DNA of 64,000 nt from Actinomycetota bacterium (GCA_016235065.1 JACRMB010000003.1:186001-250000); one strand, 5' to 3'; shown: positions 29,454-37,576, counted from the stretch's first letter. Numbers and translations are program-made. Notes: a model not told the origin generated them from the sequence alone.

Positions 29454-29552
29454 GTGACAAACCAGCAGGAAGCACTTCCGTGCGCCGGCCAAGCGCACGC
29501 TTTTGACCCAGACCGAGTCTTTACTAACGCAAGTAGGAGGATGAAGGGATGA
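29454..29552 (+). CDS. Possible 32-aa upstream leader peptide coupled to module 1
   Basis: GTG start with AGGAGG four bases upstream; 32 codons whose TGA stop overlaps the ATG of the secreted protein gene (ATGA). The second half reads FDPDRVFTN, encoded by the 28-nt element also found upstream of module 2. In module 2 the same frame runs straight into the main gene rather than stopping, which weakens the case for a real peptide. If translated it could couple or attenuate expression. Confidence 0.3.
   Translation: MTNQQEALPCAGQAHAFDPDRVFTNASRRMKG
29502..29529 (+). promoter_or_regulatory. 28-nt leader element, copy 1
   Basis: Begins TTTGACCCAGACCGAG and ends TTTACTAACG; identical over all 28 positions to 31750-31777. 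It ends 19 bases before the start codon, just ahead of the Shine-Dalgarno. It contains AGAC-CGA-GTCT, a small stem. TTGACC and TAACG resemble promoter hexamers 16 bases apart, but a promoter here would start transcription inside the ribosome site, so an RNA-level role is more likely. Confidence 0.45.
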
Positions 29553-30943
29553 AAGCAAGTTATAAGATCAGCCTCGTGGCCGTACTGGCTATGAGCCTGG
29601 CTCTCGTTATGATCCTGGGAGCCAGCATGGGCAGCGCCGCTGCGCCGGACCCTCAGCTCACCAATGACCTGGTACTGATGGCTAACGGTGGCGCAGGCGC
29701 CAACAACATCAAAGTCATCGATATCGACGGCATGGCTGTCGTCAACACGATCGCTGGCGGCACGTCGCTGGCGAACAACCACGATACTATCCTCGACAGC
29801 AGCGGTCGGTACCTCTGGAATACTAATAACAGCCTCGCTGCAGGCAAGGCCAGGGTCACCAAATTCGACCTGGGCACTCTGACTGAGGTCGGTGTGTACG
29901 ATACAGCTGCCGCCGACATGTATGCCTTCACGACCGGCTTCTGCGGTATCGAGTACAACCAGAACAACAAGGCCAGTGGTGAGATATGGGCAGCCAGCAT
30001 GTCGGGTGTCGCAACCAATGGTGGTATCTACAAGTTCAACGAAGCGAATCCCAATGGCTCCCCCTGGGTTTATATGGACGTCAGCGCCGGTACTGATAGC
30101 GGCCAGACCTGCGGTATTGGCTGGAACGCTTCAAACACGGTGGCTTATGCTTCCCTGATGGGCGCCAAGAAGACCACTGAGAGCTCCTGGCCAGGCGGCG
30201 GTGTGACCCGCTCGGTCCTCGAGACTACTCCGCTTCATCAGCTGGACGTCGACAAGACCAACGGCATCATCTACACAACCGCCGGCAAGGATGTCACCGG
30301 CATGGGTTACATCGACATCATCGATGCTTCGACCATGACCCTGGTGAACCACCTGGCTACCGGTAATCCCAGCCAGCCTCATGATGCTGAGATCGCCCAT
30401 GGCGGCTTCATGTATGTCCATTCCCGCGAGGGTATGCCGACTGAGCCCAAGGGCGTTCTGATGATCTTCGACATCGGCGGCGGCACGGCCGGTGGCACAA
30501 GCATCAACCCGGTCCTGATCGGCACCATTCCTGATCAGGGTACCAGCACCGTATCCTGCGGTAACGAGACGCTGGTCAAGAGCAACTACTGTGCCCAGCC
30601 TTCGCTGAGCATCAGCAAGAACAGCGTGTACTGGGCCAGCTATGCTGACTACACCGCCATGAAACTGTCGGTTGACTACAGCATCGGCAACGCCGCTGGC
30701 GGAACTCACGCCTACGCGGTCGAGCTGGTTGGCACAGTAAATACCCAGGGTGTCATTCTCGATACCGTCACTCCGATGAGCATCGGAAACATCCCGGCTG
30801 GAAGCAGCGCCCCAGTGACGCTCAAGTACAACATCCCAGTCGGCGTAGCGGCCTTCCAGTCGACGGCTTACGCCACAGCGAAGGACCTCTGCAACAATAC
30901 CTATGAGTATCCTGGTGCATGGCCGGGAGGCCCCCTGTACTAG
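29549..30943 (+). CDS. Secreted beta-propeller-like protein with C-terminal WASYADYTA domain (module 1)
   Basis: 464 aa with a Sec-type signal peptide (Lys at 2, hydrophobic 9-28, cleavage near GSAAA). The body (about 35-345) has repeated strands of the YVTN/propeller type (NNIKVIDIDGMAVVNTI, RVTKFDLGTLTEVGV, YIDIIDASTMTLVNHL). It keeps His-containing spots (NNHDT, SQPHD) and several Cys. The C-terminal domain of ~120 residues starts at SISKNSVYWASYADYTA and ends CNNTYEYPGAWP; it is shared with 31795-33195 and 35369-37216. Function unknown; an extracellular binding or redox protein is a guess. The 44-aa peptide gene follows after 48 bases. Confidence 0.8.
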   Translation: MKASYKISLVAVLAMSLALVMILGASMGSAAAPDPQLTNDLVLMANGGAGANNIKVIDIDGMAVVNTIAGGTSLANNHDTILDSSGRYLWNTNNSLAAGKARVTKFDLGTLTEVGVYDTAAADMYAFTTGFCGIEYNQNNKASGEIWAASMSGVATNGGIYKFNEANPNGSPWVYMDVSAGTDSGQTCGIGWNASNTVAYASLMGAKKTTESSWPGGGVTRSVLETTPLHQLDVDKTNGIIYTTAGKDVTGMGYIDIIDASTMTLVNHLATGNPSQPHDAEIAHGGFMYVHSREGMPTEPKGVLMIFDIGGGTAGGTSINPVLIGTIPDQGTSTVSCGNETLVKSNYCAQPSLSISKNSVYWASYADYTAMKLSVDYSIGNAAGGTHAYAVELVGTVNTQGVILDTVTPMSIGNIPAGSSAPVTLKYNIPVGVAAFQSTAYATAKDLCNNTYEYPGAWPGGPLY

Positions 30944-30991: not shown

Positions 30992-31126
30992 ATGACCGCA
31001 AAGAAAAACGATCATCGTGAGCCTTACGCGAAGCCGGAACTGGTGAGGCATGATAACTTGAAGGACATCACCTTCGAGTGCCCCCAGTGGCAGTGCAGCG
31101 TAGTGGTTCCGCCGCCGCCGGCCTAA
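30992..31126 (+). CDS. 44-aa RiPP-precursor-like peptide, copy 1
   Basis: Short gene with GGAG 9 bases before its ATG. The N-terminal part (MTAKKNDHREP) is followed by YAKPELVRHDNLKDIT, which resembles the leader recognised by RRE proteins in lasso and related RiPP precursors (YxxPxL...LxxT). The C-terminal part is FECPQWQCSVVVPPPPA: two Cys four residues apart and a Pro run. Copy 2 (33261-33395) is identical except for N6S; copy 3 (37269-37397) has a different N-terminus and only K for R afterwards. Compared with copy 3 there are ten base changes after the GAG codon, nine synonymous. No maturation enzymes are nearby. An in-frame ATG at 30968 is less well placed. Confidence 0.8.
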   Translation: MTAKKNDHREPYAKPELVRHDNLKDITFECPQWQCSVVVPPPPA

Positions 31127-31159
31127 GGCCAGTCCGGCGCAGATACAACTGGTATCAAC

Positions 31160-31191
31160 GGGAGGATGGATCCGCAAGGATCCATCCTCCC
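31160..31191 (+). terminator. Hairpin after peptide copy 1
   Basis: 14-bp perfect stem (GGGAGGATGGATCC / complement) with loop GCAA, followed by TGTTGTTTTAC. Probably ends the secreted-protein and peptide transcript. Similar hairpins follow peptide copies 2 and 3. Confidence 0.65.
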
Positions 31192-31282
31192 TGTTGTTTT
31201 ACACCAGACTTTCACTTTCAGGCCAAATAGATTCATCCGACGCCCTATTATTTATTTAGCTTCCCAAATCGGGGAAAAAATC

Positions 31283-31412
31283 AGGGTATACCCTTAAATA
31301 CAATTTGCTGTTTTCTTCAAAAAGTATCACTTATAGGTATACCCCGGGGGGCTTATATCCCCCTCTAATTGAGTCTATATCATCATTAAATTAGACCATT
31401 TGCATCATGTAA
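31283..31412 (+). promoter_or_regulatory. Conserved upstream block of module 2 (palindromes plus GCATCATGTAA)
   Basis: Perfect 12-bp palindrome AGGGTATACCCT (31283-31294), palindromic box TATACCCCGGGGGGC (31338-31352) and GCATCATGTAA (31402-31412). From the second box onward the spacing equals module 1 without gaps, while the flanking sequence has diverged, which marks these blocks as constrained. Box to start codon is about 440 bases here and about 420 in module 1. Confidence 0.5.
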
Positions 31413-31749
31413 AAACCCTAATTTCGAGTAAACTACTTGCATTATAAGTGTCGTTATCAACTATTCGGGAGAAATCGGAACGCGAAAGCGGTAGTTGGGT
31501 TACGGGCTTGGCATTATATTTATCGGCCGACGTGGAAGCTGCAGCATTCAGTAGAGTCGACGGTATCAATGAACTGAAGTCACCCAAAGTTCGGCGCGTG
31601 GTTTTGCGACCGCTTTTTACGGTTTCATCGGATCAGCACGAGACACTTACATTATTAATAACCCTCCCGGCCAGGAGGGGCATGAAAGGCAGGTGGTACA
31701 CAGAGATAACAGGTAGTGCGGTACGGTGGGTAACGTACTTTTCTTTTTG

Positions 31750-31777
31750 TTTGACCCAGACCGAGTCTTTACTAACG
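31750..31777 (+). promoter_or_regulatory. 28-nt leader element, copy 2
   Basis: Identical to 29502-29529. It ends 17 bases before the module 2 start codon. Sequence upstream of it is unlike that of module 1, so the identity is local. Confidence 0.45.
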
Positions 31778-31794
31778 AAGAAGGAGGGGAAGGG

Positions 31795-33195
31795 ATGAAA
31801 GCAAGTTGGAAATTAGGGCTCGTGGCCATCATGACCATGAGCCTGGCTCTGATACTAATCCTCGGAGCCACTATTGGTAGCGCTGCAGCGCCGAATCCGG
31901 CACTCAGCAATGATCTACTCCTGATCGGTAACGGTGGCGCCGGCGCCAATAACATCAAGGTTGTCGATGTTGACGCCATGGCTACTGTGAACACAATCGC
32001 CGGCGGCACGTCGCTGGCCAACAACCACGGCACCATCGTGGACAGTACTGGACGTTATTTGTATAACACCAACAACGCTCTAGTCGGTACCGGCGCGACC
32101 GCCAAGACCAGGGTCACCAAGTTCGACCTGGGTACCCTGACTGAGGTTGGCGTCATGGACGGCGCCAGCGCTGACGGTTATGCTCTTGGTTCAGGCGCCT
32201 GCGGCATTGAGTGGAACCTGAACGATTCGTCTACTGGCAAGCTCTGGGTAACCAGCATGTCCGCCAGCACGACCAACGGCGGCCTCTATGAGGTCGACCA
32301 GACCACCGGTTTCACCGGCAGGTTCGTCGATAACACCGCTGGCGCAGATAACGGCGCGACCTGCGGTATCGGTTGGAACGCCAGTGGCTCCCTGGCTTAT
32401 GGCGCAGCCATGAACGCCAAGAAGACCACCGAGATCACCAATCTCAGCAGCGGCACCCCCGCGCTTGGCGCGAGCGCCGTTTCCGCTACGGTGCTTCACA
32501 TGATGACGACCGACAAGGTAAACGGCCTGGCCTATGTGGCCGCCGGTAAGGATGCAGCCAACAACGGTTTCATCGACGTAGTCGACCTGAGCACGATGAC
32601 CGTCGTGAATCACATGCTGACGGGTAACCCGAGCCAGCCGCACGACGTCGAGATCTCCGCTGACGGTGGCTTCCTGTACTCGCACTCCCGCTTCGGCGGA
32701 CCGGGCGGCACCACTGGCAACGCCGGTCTCCTGCTCATCTACGATATCGGTAATGGTATGGCTGGCGGCACCAGGTTAGCTCCGGTGCTGGTTGGCTCCA
32801 TCGCTGATGAAGGTACAGCGACCACTTCCTGCGGTACCGAAGTGCTCGTGAAGAGCAGCTACTGCGGTTCCCCGGCACTCAGCCTCAGCAAGACCAGTGT
32901 ACTCTGGGCCAGCTATGCTGATTACACAGCCGGACTGCTGACTGTCAACTACAGCGTTGGCAATAGCGGCATCAATGCCAACACCGTCCAGATCGTCGGT
33001 TCCACCAGCACTAACGGCGTCCTTCTGGCGACAGCTACTCCGGTTGCTGTAGGCAACATCGCCACCGGCGGCAGCGCTGCAGTAACACTGCAGTACAATG
33101 TGCCTGGTAGCGTAGCGAGCTTCTCAACTACGACCTACGCGACCGCCAAGGACCTGTGCAACAACACGTATGCCTATCCTGGGGCCATGCCCTAA
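31795..33195 (+). CDS. Secreted beta-propeller-like protein with C-terminal WASYADYTA domain (module 2)
   Basis: 466 aa from the ATG at 31795, chosen by AGGAGGGGAAGGG upstream and by alignment to the module 1 paralogue (MKAS(W/Y)K start). Signal peptide, then the same propeller-like body (NNIKVVDVDAMATVNTI, RVTKFDLGTLTEVGV, FIDVVDLSTMTVVNHM) and the shared C-terminal domain (SLSKTSVLWASYADYTAGLL ... LCNNTYAYPGAMP). The two are clearly tandem duplicates, with enough divergence to be old. No transmembrane segment or sorting signal follows the last domain, so it should be released or held by partners. Confidence 0.8.
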   Translation: MKASWKLGLVAIMTMSLALILILGATIGSAAAPNPALSNDLLLIGNGGAGANNIKVVDVDAMATVNTIAGGTSLANNHGTIVDSTGRYLYNTNNALVGTGATAKTRVTKFDLGTLTEVGVMDGASADGYALGSGACGIEWNLNDSSTGKLWVTSMSASTTNGGLYEVDQTTGFTGRFVDNTAGADNGATCGIGWNASGSLAYGAAMNAKKTTEITNLSSGTPALGASAVSATVLHMMTTDKVNGLAYVAAGKDAANNGFIDVVDLSTMTVVNHMLTGNPSQPHDVEISADGGFLYSHSRFGGPGGTTGNAGLLLIYDIGNGMAGGTRLAPVLVGSIADEGTATTSCGTEVLVKSSYCGSPALSLSKTSVLWASYADYTAGLLTVNYSVGNSGINANTVQIVGSTSTNGVLLATATPVAVGNIATGGSAAVTLQYNVPGSVASFSTTTYATAKDLCNNTYAYPGAMP

Positions 33196-33260
33196 GGGCT
33201 GATCCTGATAGGTTGATGTTGTTCACCTGCAAGCAAACTGACGTGAAAGGAGAACGCGAT

Positions 33261-33395
33261 ATGACTGCAAAGAAAAGCGATCATCGTGAGCCTTACGCGA
33301 AGCCGGAACTGGTGAGGCATGATAACTTGAAGGACATCACCTTCGAGTGCCCCCAGTGGCAGTGCAGCGTAGTGGTTCCGCCGCCGCCGGCGTAA
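33261..33395 (+). CDS. 44-aa RiPP-precursor-like peptide, copy 2
   Basis: Same peptide as copy 1 with Ser for Asn at position 6. The ribosome site and preceding bases (GAAAGGAGAA then CGCGATATGAC) are also conserved with copy 1. It lies 65 bases after the module 2 secreted protein and 27 bases before a perfect hairpin. No signal peptide is present, so it is made in the cytoplasm and, if exported, needs a dedicated route. Shares the YAKPELVRHDNLKDIT leader-like part and the CPQWQC core-like part. Confidence 0.8.
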   Translation: MTAKKSDHREPYAKPELVRHDNLKDITFECPQWQCSVVVPPPPA

Positions 33396-33422
33396 GCCAG
33401 CAGGCATAAGTAACAGAAACAC

Positions 33423-33456
33423 AGAAGGGATGGGCTCGCAAGAGTCCATCCCTTCT
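33423..33456 (+). terminator. Hairpin after peptide copy 2
   Basis: 15-bp stem AGAAGGGATGGGCTC / GAGTCCATCCCTTCT with one G-U pair and loop GCAA, the same loop as after copy 1. No T-run follows, so termination would be weak or it serves as an mRNA-stabilising 3' hairpin. Confidence 0.5.
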
Positions 33457-33562
33457 GGAACAATCCTGAAGAACCGGGTTTATGGGGTGCAAGCAGGGCG
33501 GAAAGGGAGTAAAATAGCAGGATCACTTCTGTTCCGCAAACTAAGCAAGGAGAAACAACGAG

Positions 33563-34120
33563 ATGAAAGCTGGAAACCCTTACGGCAGCGGGCCCCGGGG
33601 AATGTTGATGGTAGCAGTGGCAGTGATAATGGCAGTGGGTTTAATTCTCGTTTGGGGAGGTTGTGGGGGAGACGGCAAGGAAGCAAGTACAGGCTCACAG
33701 CTCGATGACGAGTCGGTCGGTTCATCAAGTACCGGCACCAGCACGGTAAGAGGCACAGGTTCGGCAAACGGATCTGGAACCAATGACTCAAATCAGGGCA
33801 ACGTGATGGTAGATTATACTTTGAGCCAATGCATCGCCGATATGACAGTCCGTTATGGCGACGCCGCTACCGCACAGAGAGTCTGCAACGGGATCCAGGC
33901 TGATTATTCGACAGCTACGATAAGCGAGCTGCCGACAGTCCTTCCCCAGGTTGAGACTGAAGTTAGCGCCACACCGTTGCCGGGCAGCACGATCCCCGGA
34001 ACCGGCGGTTCGACAGGAGGAACTGGTAATACCGGTGGCAACACCGGAGGTAATACTGATAACAGTGGCAGTGGATGGGACTCCGGCGGTATCGAGATAG
34101 TTGTGCCGCCATCTCCCTGA
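33563..34120 (+). CDS. Small Ser/Gly/Thr-rich lipoprotein of unknown function
   Basis: 185 aa. Hydrophobic segment about 15-30 ending in a lipobox-like VWGGC, so probably lipid-anchored. Then a Ser/Thr/Gly-rich linker, a short folded-looking part (about 88-125: LSQCIADMTVRYGDAATAQRV, with two Cys) and a Gly/Asn/Thr repeat tail (TGGNTGGNTGG) ending in IVVPPSP. I recognise no family. It lies between module 2 and the HprK-related kinase, with AAGGAGAA upstream, and the kinase follows closely, so the two may be co-transcribed. Confidence 0.65.
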   Translation: MKAGNPYGSGPRGMLMVAVAVIMAVGLILVWGGCGGDGKEASTGSQLDDESVGSSSTGTSTVRGTGSANGSGTNDSNQGNVMVDYTLSQCIADMTVRYGDAATAQRVCNGIQADYSTATISELPTVLPQVETEVSATPLPGSTIPGTGGSTGGTGNTGGNTGGNTDNSGSGWDSGGIEIVVPPSP

Positions 34121-34154
34121 TATTGACGCTTAGGTGGCAGGAAAGGCGGGCAGG

Positions 34155-35180
34155 ATGCCCAGCAGTTTAGGCAAAGGGATCGCAGAGTGCATAAATGGCG
34201 TTCAGCTGAACACGGCTACTTACAGCGTGCACGGCGTTGTGACGCGCGTATACTCTGACGATCACATGCTGGCTCTGGCCATCCAGGACTTCCTCAGGTC
34301 CTTCCGCGGCCAGCCGGATGCAGAAGCCGACATCGTTTTTTATCTCCTGACAAGGGAGCCCGGCTTCGAGTTTGATCCCGGCGGCCACGGAGGCAGTCCA
34401 GAACTCCTGTACGACTGGAACGTTCTGCGATATAGCAGAGAGGGCCAGCTTCGTTACCAGGAGGTCCCGGGTGCGGGATCGATAGTATGCGATCCCGAGG
34501 CAGGGCTGGCAGTCGCTTTCGTCGAAAGCGACATGGCAGCCTGTTCGTGGTCGATGGCTCATGTGATGTTCTTCCCGATGTGGGCGCAACTGCTCAAGCA
34601 CAGGGGGATATTCCCGATCCACGCCGCTGGTCTAAGGCGGAATGGCAAAGGAATACTCTTCCCGGGAAAGAGCGGCTGCGGGAAGTCCACCATGACCCTT
34701 CACCTGATGCGTCACGGGTACAAGTTGCTGGGTGATGACACGGTATTTGTCAGGCGTACGGAAAAGGGTGCGGAAATGCTCTTTTTCCCGGAAGAAGTAG
34801 ACGTCTGTTCTGAAACCGTCGATCTTTTCCCGAACCTGGCCCTGGCGCGCAACCTGACAGAGGATCGCTGGCAACCAAAGGCGAGAGTGAATCTGAACGA
34901 GGTAGACTCGAACGCGGTGGTGGAGTCATCTTCCACTGACCTTCTGGTCTTCCCGGTCATCGCCGAGGATGGCAAGACCCGGTTTGAGCGGGTCGGACCC
35001 ACCGAAGCACTTGCCGAGCTGATTCTCTACGCTTTCCTGTTTTTGGACCCGCAGACGAGCAAGGATAACTTCGCACTCCTCGCTTCGTTGGTGCAGACGA
35101 CCAAGTGTTTTCGTCTGCATATGGGTCTGGATGGCTCTGAGCTTGCCAGAGTCGTTGATGAGATAGTCGCCGCTGCGTGA
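34155..35180 (+). CDS. HprK-related (HPr kinase-like) P-loop protein
   Basis: About 341 aa. The C-terminal half resembles HPr kinase/phosphorylase: P-loop PGKSGCGKST preceded by HAAGLRRNGKGILF, then YKLLGDDTVFV (Walker B-like, LLGDD). The N-terminal ~160 residues are unlike the HPr-kinase receptor domain. HprK-related kinases of this sort are known from loci with PqqD/RRE proteins and ribosomal peptides, and a related kinase phosphorylates a lasso peptide in other bacteria. Here it lies among three copies of a RiPP-like peptide with no HPr or PTS gene visible. A GTG at 34134 would extend it by seven residues; AGGAAAGG favours 34155. Confidence 0.75.
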   Translation: MPSSLGKGIAECINGVQLNTATYSVHGVVTRVYSDDHMLALAIQDFLRSFRGQPDAEADIVFYLLTREPGFEFDPGGHGGSPELLYDWNVLRYSREGQLRYQEVPGAGSIVCDPEAGLAVAFVESDMAACSWSMAHVMFFPMWAQLLKHRGIFPIHAAGLRRNGKGILFPGKSGCGKSTMTLHLMRHGYKLLGDDTVFVRRTEKGAEMLFFPEEVDVCSETVDLFPNLALARNLTEDRWQPKARVNLNEVDSNAVVESSSTDLLVFPVIAEDGKTRFERVGPTEALAELILYAFLFLDPQTSKDNFALLASLVQTTKCFRLHMGLDGSELARVVDEIVAAA

Positions 35181-35368
35181 GCAGTGGGGCGACGCCGGTC
35201 TGACCACCGGCACCCCTTGGTGGAGGGCAAGCGGTTAAGCCACCGGCTGTCGGTACGGGCCTCTCAGGGTGTAAGGGGAGTTAGTACCGTAAGTACACTG
35301 GGGGATGTGAGGGATCTGCATAAGCAGGTCTTAAATCCGTTTCAAGAGGATGAAGGGAGGAAGAAGAT
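35181..35368 (+). promoter_or_regulatory. Structured leader before module 3
   Basis: 188 bases with several inverted repeats in order: GCCGGT-CTGACC-ACCGGC, GGTGG...CCACC, CGGTAC...GTACCG enclosing a CCTCT/AGGGG pair, and CTGC-ATAA-GCAG. The density of stems suggests a folded 5' leader or a small RNA. I could not match it to a c-di-GMP or other riboswitch consensus. The first stem might instead terminate transcription of the kinase gene, but no T-run follows. Confidence 0.35.
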
Positions 35369-37216
35369 ATGCAAGTAAGTTCTAAATTGCTGGTAAGAAC
35401 AGCAATTGTGCTTCTGGGTGTAATGCTCGCCATGGTTGTGTTAGTGGCGGTCAACAGCCAGCAGGCGAACGCACTGAGCACGTCTCAGTGGGAGAAAGTA
35501 CGCGGCTACGTCAATGAGTACTTCGGCGGTCCGCAGTACAATGCAGGCGAGGCAGGTGAGCTCGGCTTCCGCATCACCAAGGTGGATCTGGCGGCGAGGC
35601 TGGACTCGAATAACGACATCGCTCCCAAGTATGCAACACCGGCGAGCAGCGGCACTGTCCCCGCCCCCACGACCGTCACTGGTGTCGCTGCTGAAGGCGA
35701 CAACATGGCGAACCGCCCGGTGCTCATCGATAACCTGATGACGCGTACCGACGTGATCCCGGGTACGGAATTCCGTTGTAACTGGAATGTCGATAACAGC
35801 TGCTTCGCGGATTCATCGATCTCAGCGATCAGGACGATCGTCGACAACCACAAGGCTGCCGGCTTCTCGACTGATATCGTCGATTACTGCGTCAGCGCCC
35901 AGACCGCCGGTCCGACCACGGGTGGCTTCGGCATCATCGCCCAGGTCCCTGGCGCCCTGTCAAGTGATCTCTCGCTGACACCGAATGTCTACACGCTCAA
36001 GTATGCGCGTAACGGCTGGCGTAACTACGCCACAACAGTAAGCGGCGCCAACGGGGTCACAGTACCTGAGGCACCGACCGGAGTACCTAACGCTGCTCCT
36101 ACTACCGTAGCCAACTGCGATGCTTCGGCAACCGACTACGACCTGGTCCGCTGCCAGGCCAACTGGGCCATCGCAGCCACCCTCGGCAACATCGGTAACG
36201 GCTCGACGACCACGGCTCCCATAGCTGCGCTCGCGCAGACGGTAGACATCAGGCCCGGTACGGTAAACACCGTAGCGACCGCTGGCGTCAACATGCAGGT
36301 GCCGATCGATACGCTGTTCAGCCTCAGTGGCCTGGCCAACGTGGATCCGACCAAGTCGACCGCCTTGATCACCCATACACAGCATGGCGCCGATGCAGCT
36401 ATCGGTATGAAGATGCTCGGATACAACCTGGTGGCCGCCTCCGGCAGCCTCAACGCTGGTATCGTCCGCTGGGATAGCACTCAGGGCGAGCAGCAGGTCG
36501 TCCTCGGCGATAACCTGCCGACGCAGACAATCGCTGCCTTCGCGGCCCCAGGTCCTGTTGACACGACAGGTCCGACGGTCACCAGCGTAGGCCACACCAG
36601 CGTGACCACCAGCAGCGCCGACATCGAGCGCGCAGCTGCTGAGCCGGCGACCATGAAGGTCGAATACGGCACTACCTCTGGTGGACCATACACCGGCGTA
36701 GTCAATGACACCGTGCTCAACGCGACCAAGGATGTCGCTGTCGGCAACGGCAACGCGGTGAGCCTGACCGGTCTGAGCCCGAGCACCACCTACTACTACA
36801 AGGTGACCTCGTATGATGGTTACGCCAACGGCACCGTCAGCGTCGAAGGCAACTTCACGACTCTCGCGCCGGCCTGCACGCCAGTAAAGCCGAACCTGGG
36901 AATCCAGCTCAACGGATCTCCCTTCTGGGCGAGCTATGCTGACTACACAGCCGGTCTGCTGTCTGTTGGACTGAAGATCAACAACAATGGTGCTAACGCT
37001 GCTGGCAGCGTTGCCATCACCGGCGCAACCGCCATCAACGGCGTGACGCTGGCGACGGCTACCCCGATCGCTATCGGCAGCATTGCCGGCGGCGCCTCGG
37101 GTACGACTACCGTGCAGTACAACATCCCCGCTGGTGTGATCGGCTTCAATACTGCCATCACCGCCAGCGCGTCCGATGCCTCATGTTCAGTACCATCAGG
37201 CTACACCTATCCCTAA
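35369..37216 (+). CDS. Secreted protein: two degenerate rhodanese domains, FnIII-like domain, C-terminal WASYADYTA domain (module 3)
   Basis: 615 aa, signal peptide (hydrophobic 10-28, cleavage near NALS). Residues about 40-225 look like a divergent rhodanese: VLIDNLMTRTDVIPG, then DYCVSAQTAG at the position of the CYTGNTAA loop, and LKYARNGW matching LKxGMxGW. A second copy (about 255-375) has LITHTQHGADAAIGMKMLGY in place of VVCYTGNTAAQ..LGY, with the catalytic Cys lost. Next is a fibronectin-III/phosphatase-like domain (about 395-500, TGPTVTSVG ... LSPSTTYYYKV) and the C-terminal domain shared with modules 1 and 2 (FWASYADYTAGLLSVGL ... GYTYP). It ties the peptide modules to the rhodanese proteins at 13-17 kb. 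Confidence 0.72.
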   Translation: MQVSSKLLVRTAIVLLGVMLAMVVLVAVNSQQANALSTSQWEKVRGYVNEYFGGPQYNAGEAGELGFRITKVDLAARLDSNNDIAPKYATPASSGTVPAPTTVTGVAAEGDNMANRPVLIDNLMTRTDVIPGTEFRCNWNVDNSCFADSSISAIRTIVDNHKAAGFSTDIVDYCVSAQTAGPTTGGFGIIAQVPGALSSDLSLTPNVYTLKYARNGWRNYATTVSGANGVTVPEAPTGVPNAAPTTVANCDASATDYDLVRCQANWAIAATLGNIGNGSTTTAPIAALAQTVDIRPGTVNTVATAGVNMQVPIDTLFSLSGLANVDPTKSTALITHTQHGADAAIGMKMLGYNLVAASGSLNAGIVRWDSTQGEQQVVLGDNLPTQTIAAFAAPGPVDTTGPTVTSVGHTSVTTSSADIERAAAEPATMKVEYGTTSGGPYTGVVNDTVLNATKDVAVGNGNAVSLTGLSPSTTYYYKVTSYDGYANGTVSVEGNFTTLAPACTPVKPNLGIQLNGSPFWASYADYTAGLLSVGLKINNNGANAAGSVAITGATAINGVTLATATPIAIGSIAGGASGTTTVQYNIPAGVIGFNTAITASASDASCSVPSGYTYP

Positions 37217-37268
37217 CCAGATATAGGGAATGGAAGGACTAACAAAAACGATACATGGGAGAAACCGC

Positions 37269-37397
37269 ATGGATAAGATAGAAGCGCGGGAGCCCTATGC
37301 AAAGCCAGAACTGGTGAAGCATGACAACTTGAAGGACATCACCTTTGAGTGTCCCCAGTGGCAGTGCAGTGTAGTGGTTCCGCCGCCGCCGGCATAA
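37269..37397 (+). CDS. 42-aa RiPP-precursor-like peptide, copy 3
   Basis: N-terminus MDKIEAREP differs from copies 1 and 2, but from EPYAKPELV onward the protein is the same apart from Lys for Arg. In the shared part, ten bases differ from copy 1 and nine changes are synonymous, so selection is on the peptide and the copies are not a recent duplication. GGGAGAAA lies upstream of the ATG. It follows the third secreted protein by 52 bases and is followed by a perfect hairpin, as in the other modules. Confidence 0.8.
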   Translation: MDKIEAREPYAKPELVKHDNLKDITFECPQWQCSVVVPPPPA

Positions 37398-37524: not shown

Positions 37525-37576
37525 GGGGACACATTACTTAATTGTCAATTTATTGACAATTAAGTAATGTGTCCCC
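37525..37576. repeat. 25-bp-arm palindrome sharing the MITE end sequence
   Basis: Arms 37525-37549 and 37552-37576 are perfect complements separated by TT. The outer 19 bases, GGGGACACATTACTTAATT, match the ends of the element at 16102-16422. Just before it, GGGGACGGGGCAA is tandemly repeated. It sits between the convergent module 3 and diguanylate cyclase genes and may also act as a two-way terminator. Probably a minimal relative or internal-deletion form of the same repeat family. Confidence 0.6.

Follow-up and report, generated by a model that had tools for sequence, protein, structure and literature searches.

Short peptides encoded three times in the window (the whole 64,000-nucleotide stretch of Actinomycetota DNA analyzed) are probably precursors of a linear RiPP, produced by a lasso-type leader system without a cyclase and acting together with exported proteins that carry an Ig-like domain. 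The earlier note on this DNA had described three peptides in one locus; these are present, but they belong to a set of 11 that is dispersed over the genome and recurs throughout the bacterial family.

Precursor Peptides in the Window and in the Family

The window peptides, their partner genes and the neighboring features are as follows, in window coordinates.

29549–30943, + strand: secreted partner protein 1, 464 aa, with a hydrophobic N-terminal stretch
30587–30913, + strand: lineage-specific Ig-like domain, C terminus of partner 1 (C3:216587-216913)
30992–31126, + strand: precursor peptide copy 1, 44 aa; F-1 is the last leader residue and ECPQWQCSVVVPPPPA the predicted core
31160–31191, + strand: terminator-like hairpin behind peptide 1
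31795–33195, + strand: secreted partner protein 2, 466 aa, sharing 59.5% identity with partner 1
32860–33180, + strand: Ig-like domain, C terminus of partner 2 (AlphaFold model, pLDDT 95.8)
33261–33395, + strand: precursor peptide copy 2, 44 aa
33424–33457, + strand: hairpin behind peptide 2, a stem without a T-run, read by eye
33563–34120, + strand: small exported-looking protein, 185 aa, directly 5′ of the kinase gene
34134–35180, + strand: HPr-kinase-related protein of 348 aa in which the His / GKSGCGKST / DD motif is intact; paralogous to the kinase of a remote kinase-RRE-protease cluster (L122, G000:C5)
35369–37216, + strand: secreted partner protein 3, 615 aa; fn3/Pur_ac_phosph_N module, then Ig-like domain
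36875–37213, + strand: Ig-like domain, C terminus of partner 3
37269–37397, + strand: precursor peptide copy 3, 42 aa
37422–37455, strand not given: 15-bp GC-rich hairpin behind peptide 3

Both the positions and the sequences reported earlier for the three peptide ORFs were reproduced, and a purine-rich ribosome-binding site precedes the ATG of each. Copy 1 reads MTAKKNDHREPYAKPELVRHDNLKDITFECPQWQCSVVVPPPPA, from which copy 2 departs by a single Asn to Ser change, and copy 3 reads MDKIEAREPYAKPELVKHDNLKDITFECPQWQCSVVVPPPPA; none of them matches Pfam or NCBIfam. Between copies 1 and 3, from Y-17 to the stop, nine bases differ, eight of them synonymously and one changing Arg to Lys; the ten differences (nine synonymous) counted in the earlier note are obtained once the preceding Glu-Pro codons are included. 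Copies 1 and 2 differ at just 3 of 135 bases (98% identity of the peptide DNA), so copy 2 is not independent evidence. The DNA flanking these two copies differs and their partner proteins are 59.5% identical, and to judge from the sequences the copy 2 gene looks recently homogenized, by gene conversion or cassette transfer.

The genome of origin (2.37 Mb, 98.9% complete) yields 9 peptides in a single-sequence search and 11 in a profile search, spread over contigs C1, C3, C6, C7, and C10. All 19 genomes of the family, this one included, hold 4–12 matches each, the relatives being Thermoleophilia/Gaiellales/Actinomycetes MAGs such as bacterium BMS3Abin01 and SURF_19. Homologues, on which the earlier note had made its proposal depend, are thus found throughout the family; the peptide occurs in none of 80 same-class genomes outside it, and among 396 genomes of the phylum the only matches beyond the family are short, leader-only ones with unrelated cores, in one other family. 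Across 53 distinct homologous sequences pN/pS averages 0.25 in the leader as well as in the core, well under 1, which agrees with the purifying selection first claimed from the window copies.

In that other family of the phylum, two loci (L167 and L168) contain tandem short peptides with a similar leader, YxKPELVEYENLDxITKG, adjoined by radical SAM genes (of the B12-binding type by eye). Of the three loci with leader-only matches that were read, two have radical SAM genes nearby, and the cores differ; the L167 and L168 peptides probably represent a different RiPP system.

A Lasso-Type Leader and a Conserved W-x-C-S Core

The leader segment comprises 17 residues, YxKPxLxxxxNLxxITF, numbered backwards from the residue that follows an invariant Thr. 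Y-17, P-14, and T-2 are each present in 53/53 sequences, and position -12 is Leu (or Ile) in all 53. The register Y-17/P-14/L-12/T-2 agrees with that of lasso precursors, and two divergent peptides of the genome of origin pass the NCBI lasso-leader model NF033521; the suggestion that the leader follows the pattern bound by RRE/PqqD-like proteins is upheld by these observations. The core, ECPxWQCSVxVPPPP, is numbered E1-C2-P3-x4-W5-Q6-C7-S8-V9 if cleavage occurs at F-1. C7 and S8 are invariant (53/53), C2 is Cys in 52 of the sequences, and position 5 has Trp in 51 of them and Phe in the other two. A short encoded precursor, purifying selection, and a leader followed by a core are what is generally expected of a RiPP, and we infer from these sequence features that the peptide is a modified member of that group.

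Weaker profile matches define a second variant class, which has the same leader and W-x-C-S spacing and tails rich in Asp, His, Gly, or Cys (e.g. ITFNHSSWTCSIGFDDDDDHGHDD). In its loci (L198, L208–L223, and L227) the W-x-C-S motif is usual and an adjacent domain gene is often absent. A third class ends in ECWECQGSFTF. The persistence of the leader and of W-x-C-S in most variants fits an enzyme site centered on Cys7-Ser8, with the tail as payload.

Leader-Binding Protein, Protease, and Kinases

The genome encodes exactly one match to PF05402 (PqqD-family RRE, here B1) and one to PF13471 (Transglut_core3, here B2), and no RRE other than B1 was found in it. The B1 and B2 genes lie 83 bp apart on contig C5 (L122, G000:C5), remote from the window, in the order HprK-like kinase, B1, B2, DUF2079 membrane protein. 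Because this cluster is on another contig and inside a polysaccharide locus, it could serve another substrate. B1 matches the solved lasso RREs TbiB1, 9x90_B, and TfuB1, and B2 passes the lasso model NF033537 (lasso_biosyn_B2). An RRE, named earlier as a necessary companion of the peptide if it is a RiPP, scores above cutoff in 18 of the 19 family genomes, and a kinase gene adjoins B1 in 13 of the 14 loci fetched from them. A B2 match was not obtained in G006 (78% complete) or G014 (69% complete), and in G018 no B2 is annotated between B1 and a nucleotidyltransferase-like gene. A PF14907 nucleotidyltransferase 3′ of B1 in L126 is confirmed by Pfam, while PF14907-like proteins in L127 and L134 were recognized by sequence only. 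The DUF2079 gene (L122 9694–11619) is directly 3′ of B2, as in most clusters of the family; its product could act on a phosphopeptide or be part of the polysaccharide locus.

The HPr-kinase-related gene of the window is placed between peptides 2 and 3. Its product is 30–39% identical to the cluster kinases and retains His163, the P-loop GKSGCGKST, and Asp201-Asp202, corresponding to the His-G-GKS-DD residues reported for lasso kinases (PMC10368454). A structural model (pLDDT 84.5) matches PEPCK and HPr kinases of the PEPCK/HprK superfamily. This paralogue adjoins peptides in seven loci, the window and six others, and the 185-aa protein co-occurs with it in the same seven. Elsewhere in the family, L135 (G006:C29:72000–91900) encodes an HprK-like protein, a PqqD protein, and a SPASM-type radical SAM protein, an arrangement that recalls SynChlorMet; cassettes of the same type may account for the second PqqD loci of other family genomes.

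Most Peptide Genes Adjoin Genes for a Lineage-Specific Exported Domain

Each window peptide gene has 5′ of it a gene for a partner protein that looks exported. The last ∼105 residues of the partner proteins are homologous, and the remainder is unrelated across loci. Of the window partners, two are related to each other and match nothing in Pfam, and one is of the fn3 type; at other loci, inspection by eye identified rhodanese-like, cytochrome/DOMON-like, and glycosidase-like proteins, and one partner type is hardly more than a signal peptide followed by the Ig-like domain. The genome of origin has the domain at ∼37 places; all 19 family genomes carry it, and the 41 genomes searched outside the family all lack it. 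The model of the partner 2 domain (pLDDT 95.8) is an Ig-like sandwich, for which no PDB match below E 0.001 was obtained, just generic Ig-like/adaptin-ear sandwiches. Assignment to a known domain family was rejected, since the similarity to CARDB/DUF11 is sub-threshold only.

Gene order links the domain to the peptide. Of 42 peptides with enough flanking sequence to be evaluated, 31 sit 5–86 bp after a gene ending in the Ig-like domain. Three more are just before a domain gene, and in two of these the domain is on the N-terminal side, so that it again adjoins the peptide gene. Seven of the 11 peptides in the genome of origin are directly 3′ of a domain gene, for which the chance probability is ∼9e-11 (binomial, with 37 domain genes and an assumed 2,300 genes), or 3e-9 without the tandem copy. 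Three of the 11 lack a domain gene as neighbor, and most of the ∼37 domain genes are not next to a peptide; the link therefore need not be one-to-one. One-to-one co-evolution of peptide and domain was considered and rejected, the mirror correlation being weak (r = 0.16, a value reached in 57 of 5,000 permutations). The two have the same distribution, occurring in 19/19 family genomes and in none of the other class genomes searched, and they probably belong together as components of a single exported system.

Two further features of the window concern its non-coding DNA. A nearly identical block of ∼45 bp (TTTGACCCAGACCGAGTCTTTACTAACG...AGGAGG) precedes partner genes 1 and 2 (29502–29548 and 31750–31794), and the DNA further 5′ of it differs between the two; the block is a possible shared regulatory element. 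An inverted repeat just behind copy 3 (37527–37574; GGACACATTACTTAATTG...CAATTAAGTAATGTGTCC) contains an 18-mer found 57 times in the genome at ≤2 mismatches (29 forward, 28 reverse; 0 for the reversed control), and is a dispersed MITE/REP-like element.

Proposed Mechanism

The sequences themselves establish the leader register, the set of enzymes, the missing ring acceptor, the lack of a recognizable cyclase or YcaO, the conservation, and the linkage to the domain; we infer that the remote B1 and B2 act on the dispersed peptides. B1, as a discrete PqqD-type RRE, would bind the leader YxKPxLxxxxNLxxITF, whereupon an HPr-kinase-like enzyme (that encoded beside B1, or the window paralogue) would phosphorylate the core, most likely on Ser8 of W-x-C-S because this residue is invariant. 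The transglutaminase-like protease B2 would then cut after F-1, and the freed core would stay linear, though Cys2 and Cys7 may be joined by a disulfide. The mature peptide would be made together with, and probably act on the cell surface with, the exported Ig-like domain proteins, with which the peptide forms one operon at most loci. No exporter was identified. Such a two-part surface system would use the processed peptide as ligand, anchor, or decoration for the Ig-like domain. A more specific version, in which the linear peptide is phosphorylated, perhaps then glycosylated, and serves as the anchor or ligand for the Ig-like domain of dozens of exported proteins in a lineage-specific surface assembly, is tentative, and we consider it less likely than not.

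Alternative Explanations

The lasso-type character of the leader, RRE, B2, and kinase, and the presence of three full-length Asn_synthase proteins in the genome (two encoded on C9, one on C10), raise the prospect of a divergent true lasso peptide, in which a remote Asn-synthetase-like protein closes an unusual ring. The sequences argue strongly against it. Not one of the 53 cores has Asp or Glu at positions 7–9, which are occupied by C, S, and V/I/F. Of the three proteins, the two from C9 were scored against the lasso-cyclase model; they reach 148 and 244 bits, under a cutoff of 525, and better fit Asn synthase / EPS amidotransferase models. No Asn synthetase was recognized in the kinase-B1-B2 clusters read. 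Of 10 related genomes that lack the peptide, 8 also have Asn synthetase genes; in G008, which is 98% complete and has 11 peptides, no full-length one was seen, although an assembly gap is possible there. These synthetases, EPS/AsnB-like, remote, and shared with peptide-free relatives, were accordingly rejected as lasso cyclases. With neither a ring acceptor nor a lasso cyclase found, the peptide is not a lasso by these signs, as the earlier note had concluded from the core, and we consider a divergent lasso very unlikely. Somewhat better placed, though still unlikely, is modification of the Cys/Ser/Trp core by other chemistry, such as radical SAM cross-linking or epimerization or an unknown enzyme, with B1 and B2 handling the leader only. 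Trp5-x-Cys7-Ser8 is kept in variants with wholly different tails, as would be expected of a site recognized by an enzyme; in L122–L125 a SPASM radical SAM gene is found close to the B1 cluster, and G006 has the kinase-PqqD-radical SAM set. However, a radical SAM gene is near B1 in only 5 of 14 loci and none adjoins the window peptides; SPASM proteins occur with and without the peptide, and were rejected as a common maturase. YcaO is absent from 15 family genomes searched (that of origin and 14 others), which counts against a YcaO azole/azoline peptide.

The physical proximity of the domain proteins, closer to the peptides than B1 and B2 are, would also suit a peptide that is never matured and works as a cytosolic or co-secreted helper of those proteins (a chaperone, inhibitor, or attachment peptide), its YxxP motif being fortuitous. 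We think this improbable, and more so than other core chemistry, given the exact lasso-leader spacing with T-2 invariant family-wide, the matches to the lasso-leader model, the kinase paralogue beside peptides in seven loci, and a peptide that itself has no signal-like hydrophobic stretch. Finally, the near identity of copies 1 and 2 in DNA might be taken to mean chance ORFs or a repeated DNA element misread as a peptide. This is contradicted by the substitution pattern (pN/pS 0.25 over 53 sequences) and by invariant residues, ribosome-binding sites, and operon position conserved across the family, and its probability is negligible. The cyclase-free linear RiPP acting with Ig-like domain proteins is the reading we favor.

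Comparison with Known Systems

The individual pieces are known; of their combination, a cyclase-free, dispersed, kinase-linked peptide with a lineage-specific exported domain, the open-licence papers searched contain no description. If the proposal is correct, the lasso leader-kinase-B1-B2 machinery would also serve to make a linear product without a cyclase, and these peptides would be a rare case of RiPP precursors that are dispersed in the genome and linked to exported proteins, as opposed to being kept in one biosynthetic cluster. If the anchor/ligand reading also holds, the RiPP would have a structural or sorting role, in place of that of a bioactive compound released from the cell or of a cofactor. 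Tools that mine for lasso-like precursors beside a cyclase (PF00733) would miss these peptides, and the link to a lineage-specific secreted domain yields a testable proposal for their purpose.

The closest relatives are the phosphorylated lasso peptides (BsfA/BsfK/B1/B2, paeninodin, and pseudomycoidin), which likewise combine this leader register with a PqqD-type RRE, a B2 protease, and an HPr-kinase homologue. In the Bradymonas lasso precursor BsfA the leader positions are Y(-17), P(-14), and L(-12), and Ile occupies -2. In vitro, a Ser inside the BsfA core is phosphorylated by the HPr-kinase homologue, a reaction strongly stimulated by B1, and the leader is cut by B2 (PMC10368454). A further common feature is a PF14907 nucleotidyltransferase near the cluster in some relatives. 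In contrast to BsfA, position -2 is Thr here, and in contrast to these systems generally there is no acceptor Asp/Glu and no recognizable lasso cyclase, the ∼10 precursors per genome are dispersed, with the enzymes remote from most of them, and precursors form operons with secreted proteins.

The SynChlorMet cassette (kinase-like ScmC, PqqD-like ScmD, and radical SAMs) has in common an HprK-like and a PqqD-like protein with a short peptide, but neither counterpart here reaches the respective cutoff, the window kinase obtaining 34.8 of the 125 bits required for ScmC and B1 31.7 of the 100 required for ScmD; paired radical SAMs are absent here and a B2 protease is present. The HPr-rel-A system (TIGR04352/TIGR04353) similarly pairs an HprK-related kinase with a PqqD protein, yet the scores here are far under its equivalog cutoffs (53.9–65 against 200 and 17.2 against 35). 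With regard to the exported proteins, no sortase or exosortase relation of the Ig-like domain was found. What the Ig-like domain shares with LPXTG, PEP-CTERM, and the T9SS tail is its occurrence, mostly C-terminal, on dozens of unrelated exported proteins of one lineage; unlike those signals, it is a folded module, sometimes N-terminal or internal, and a short peptide gene lies alongside.
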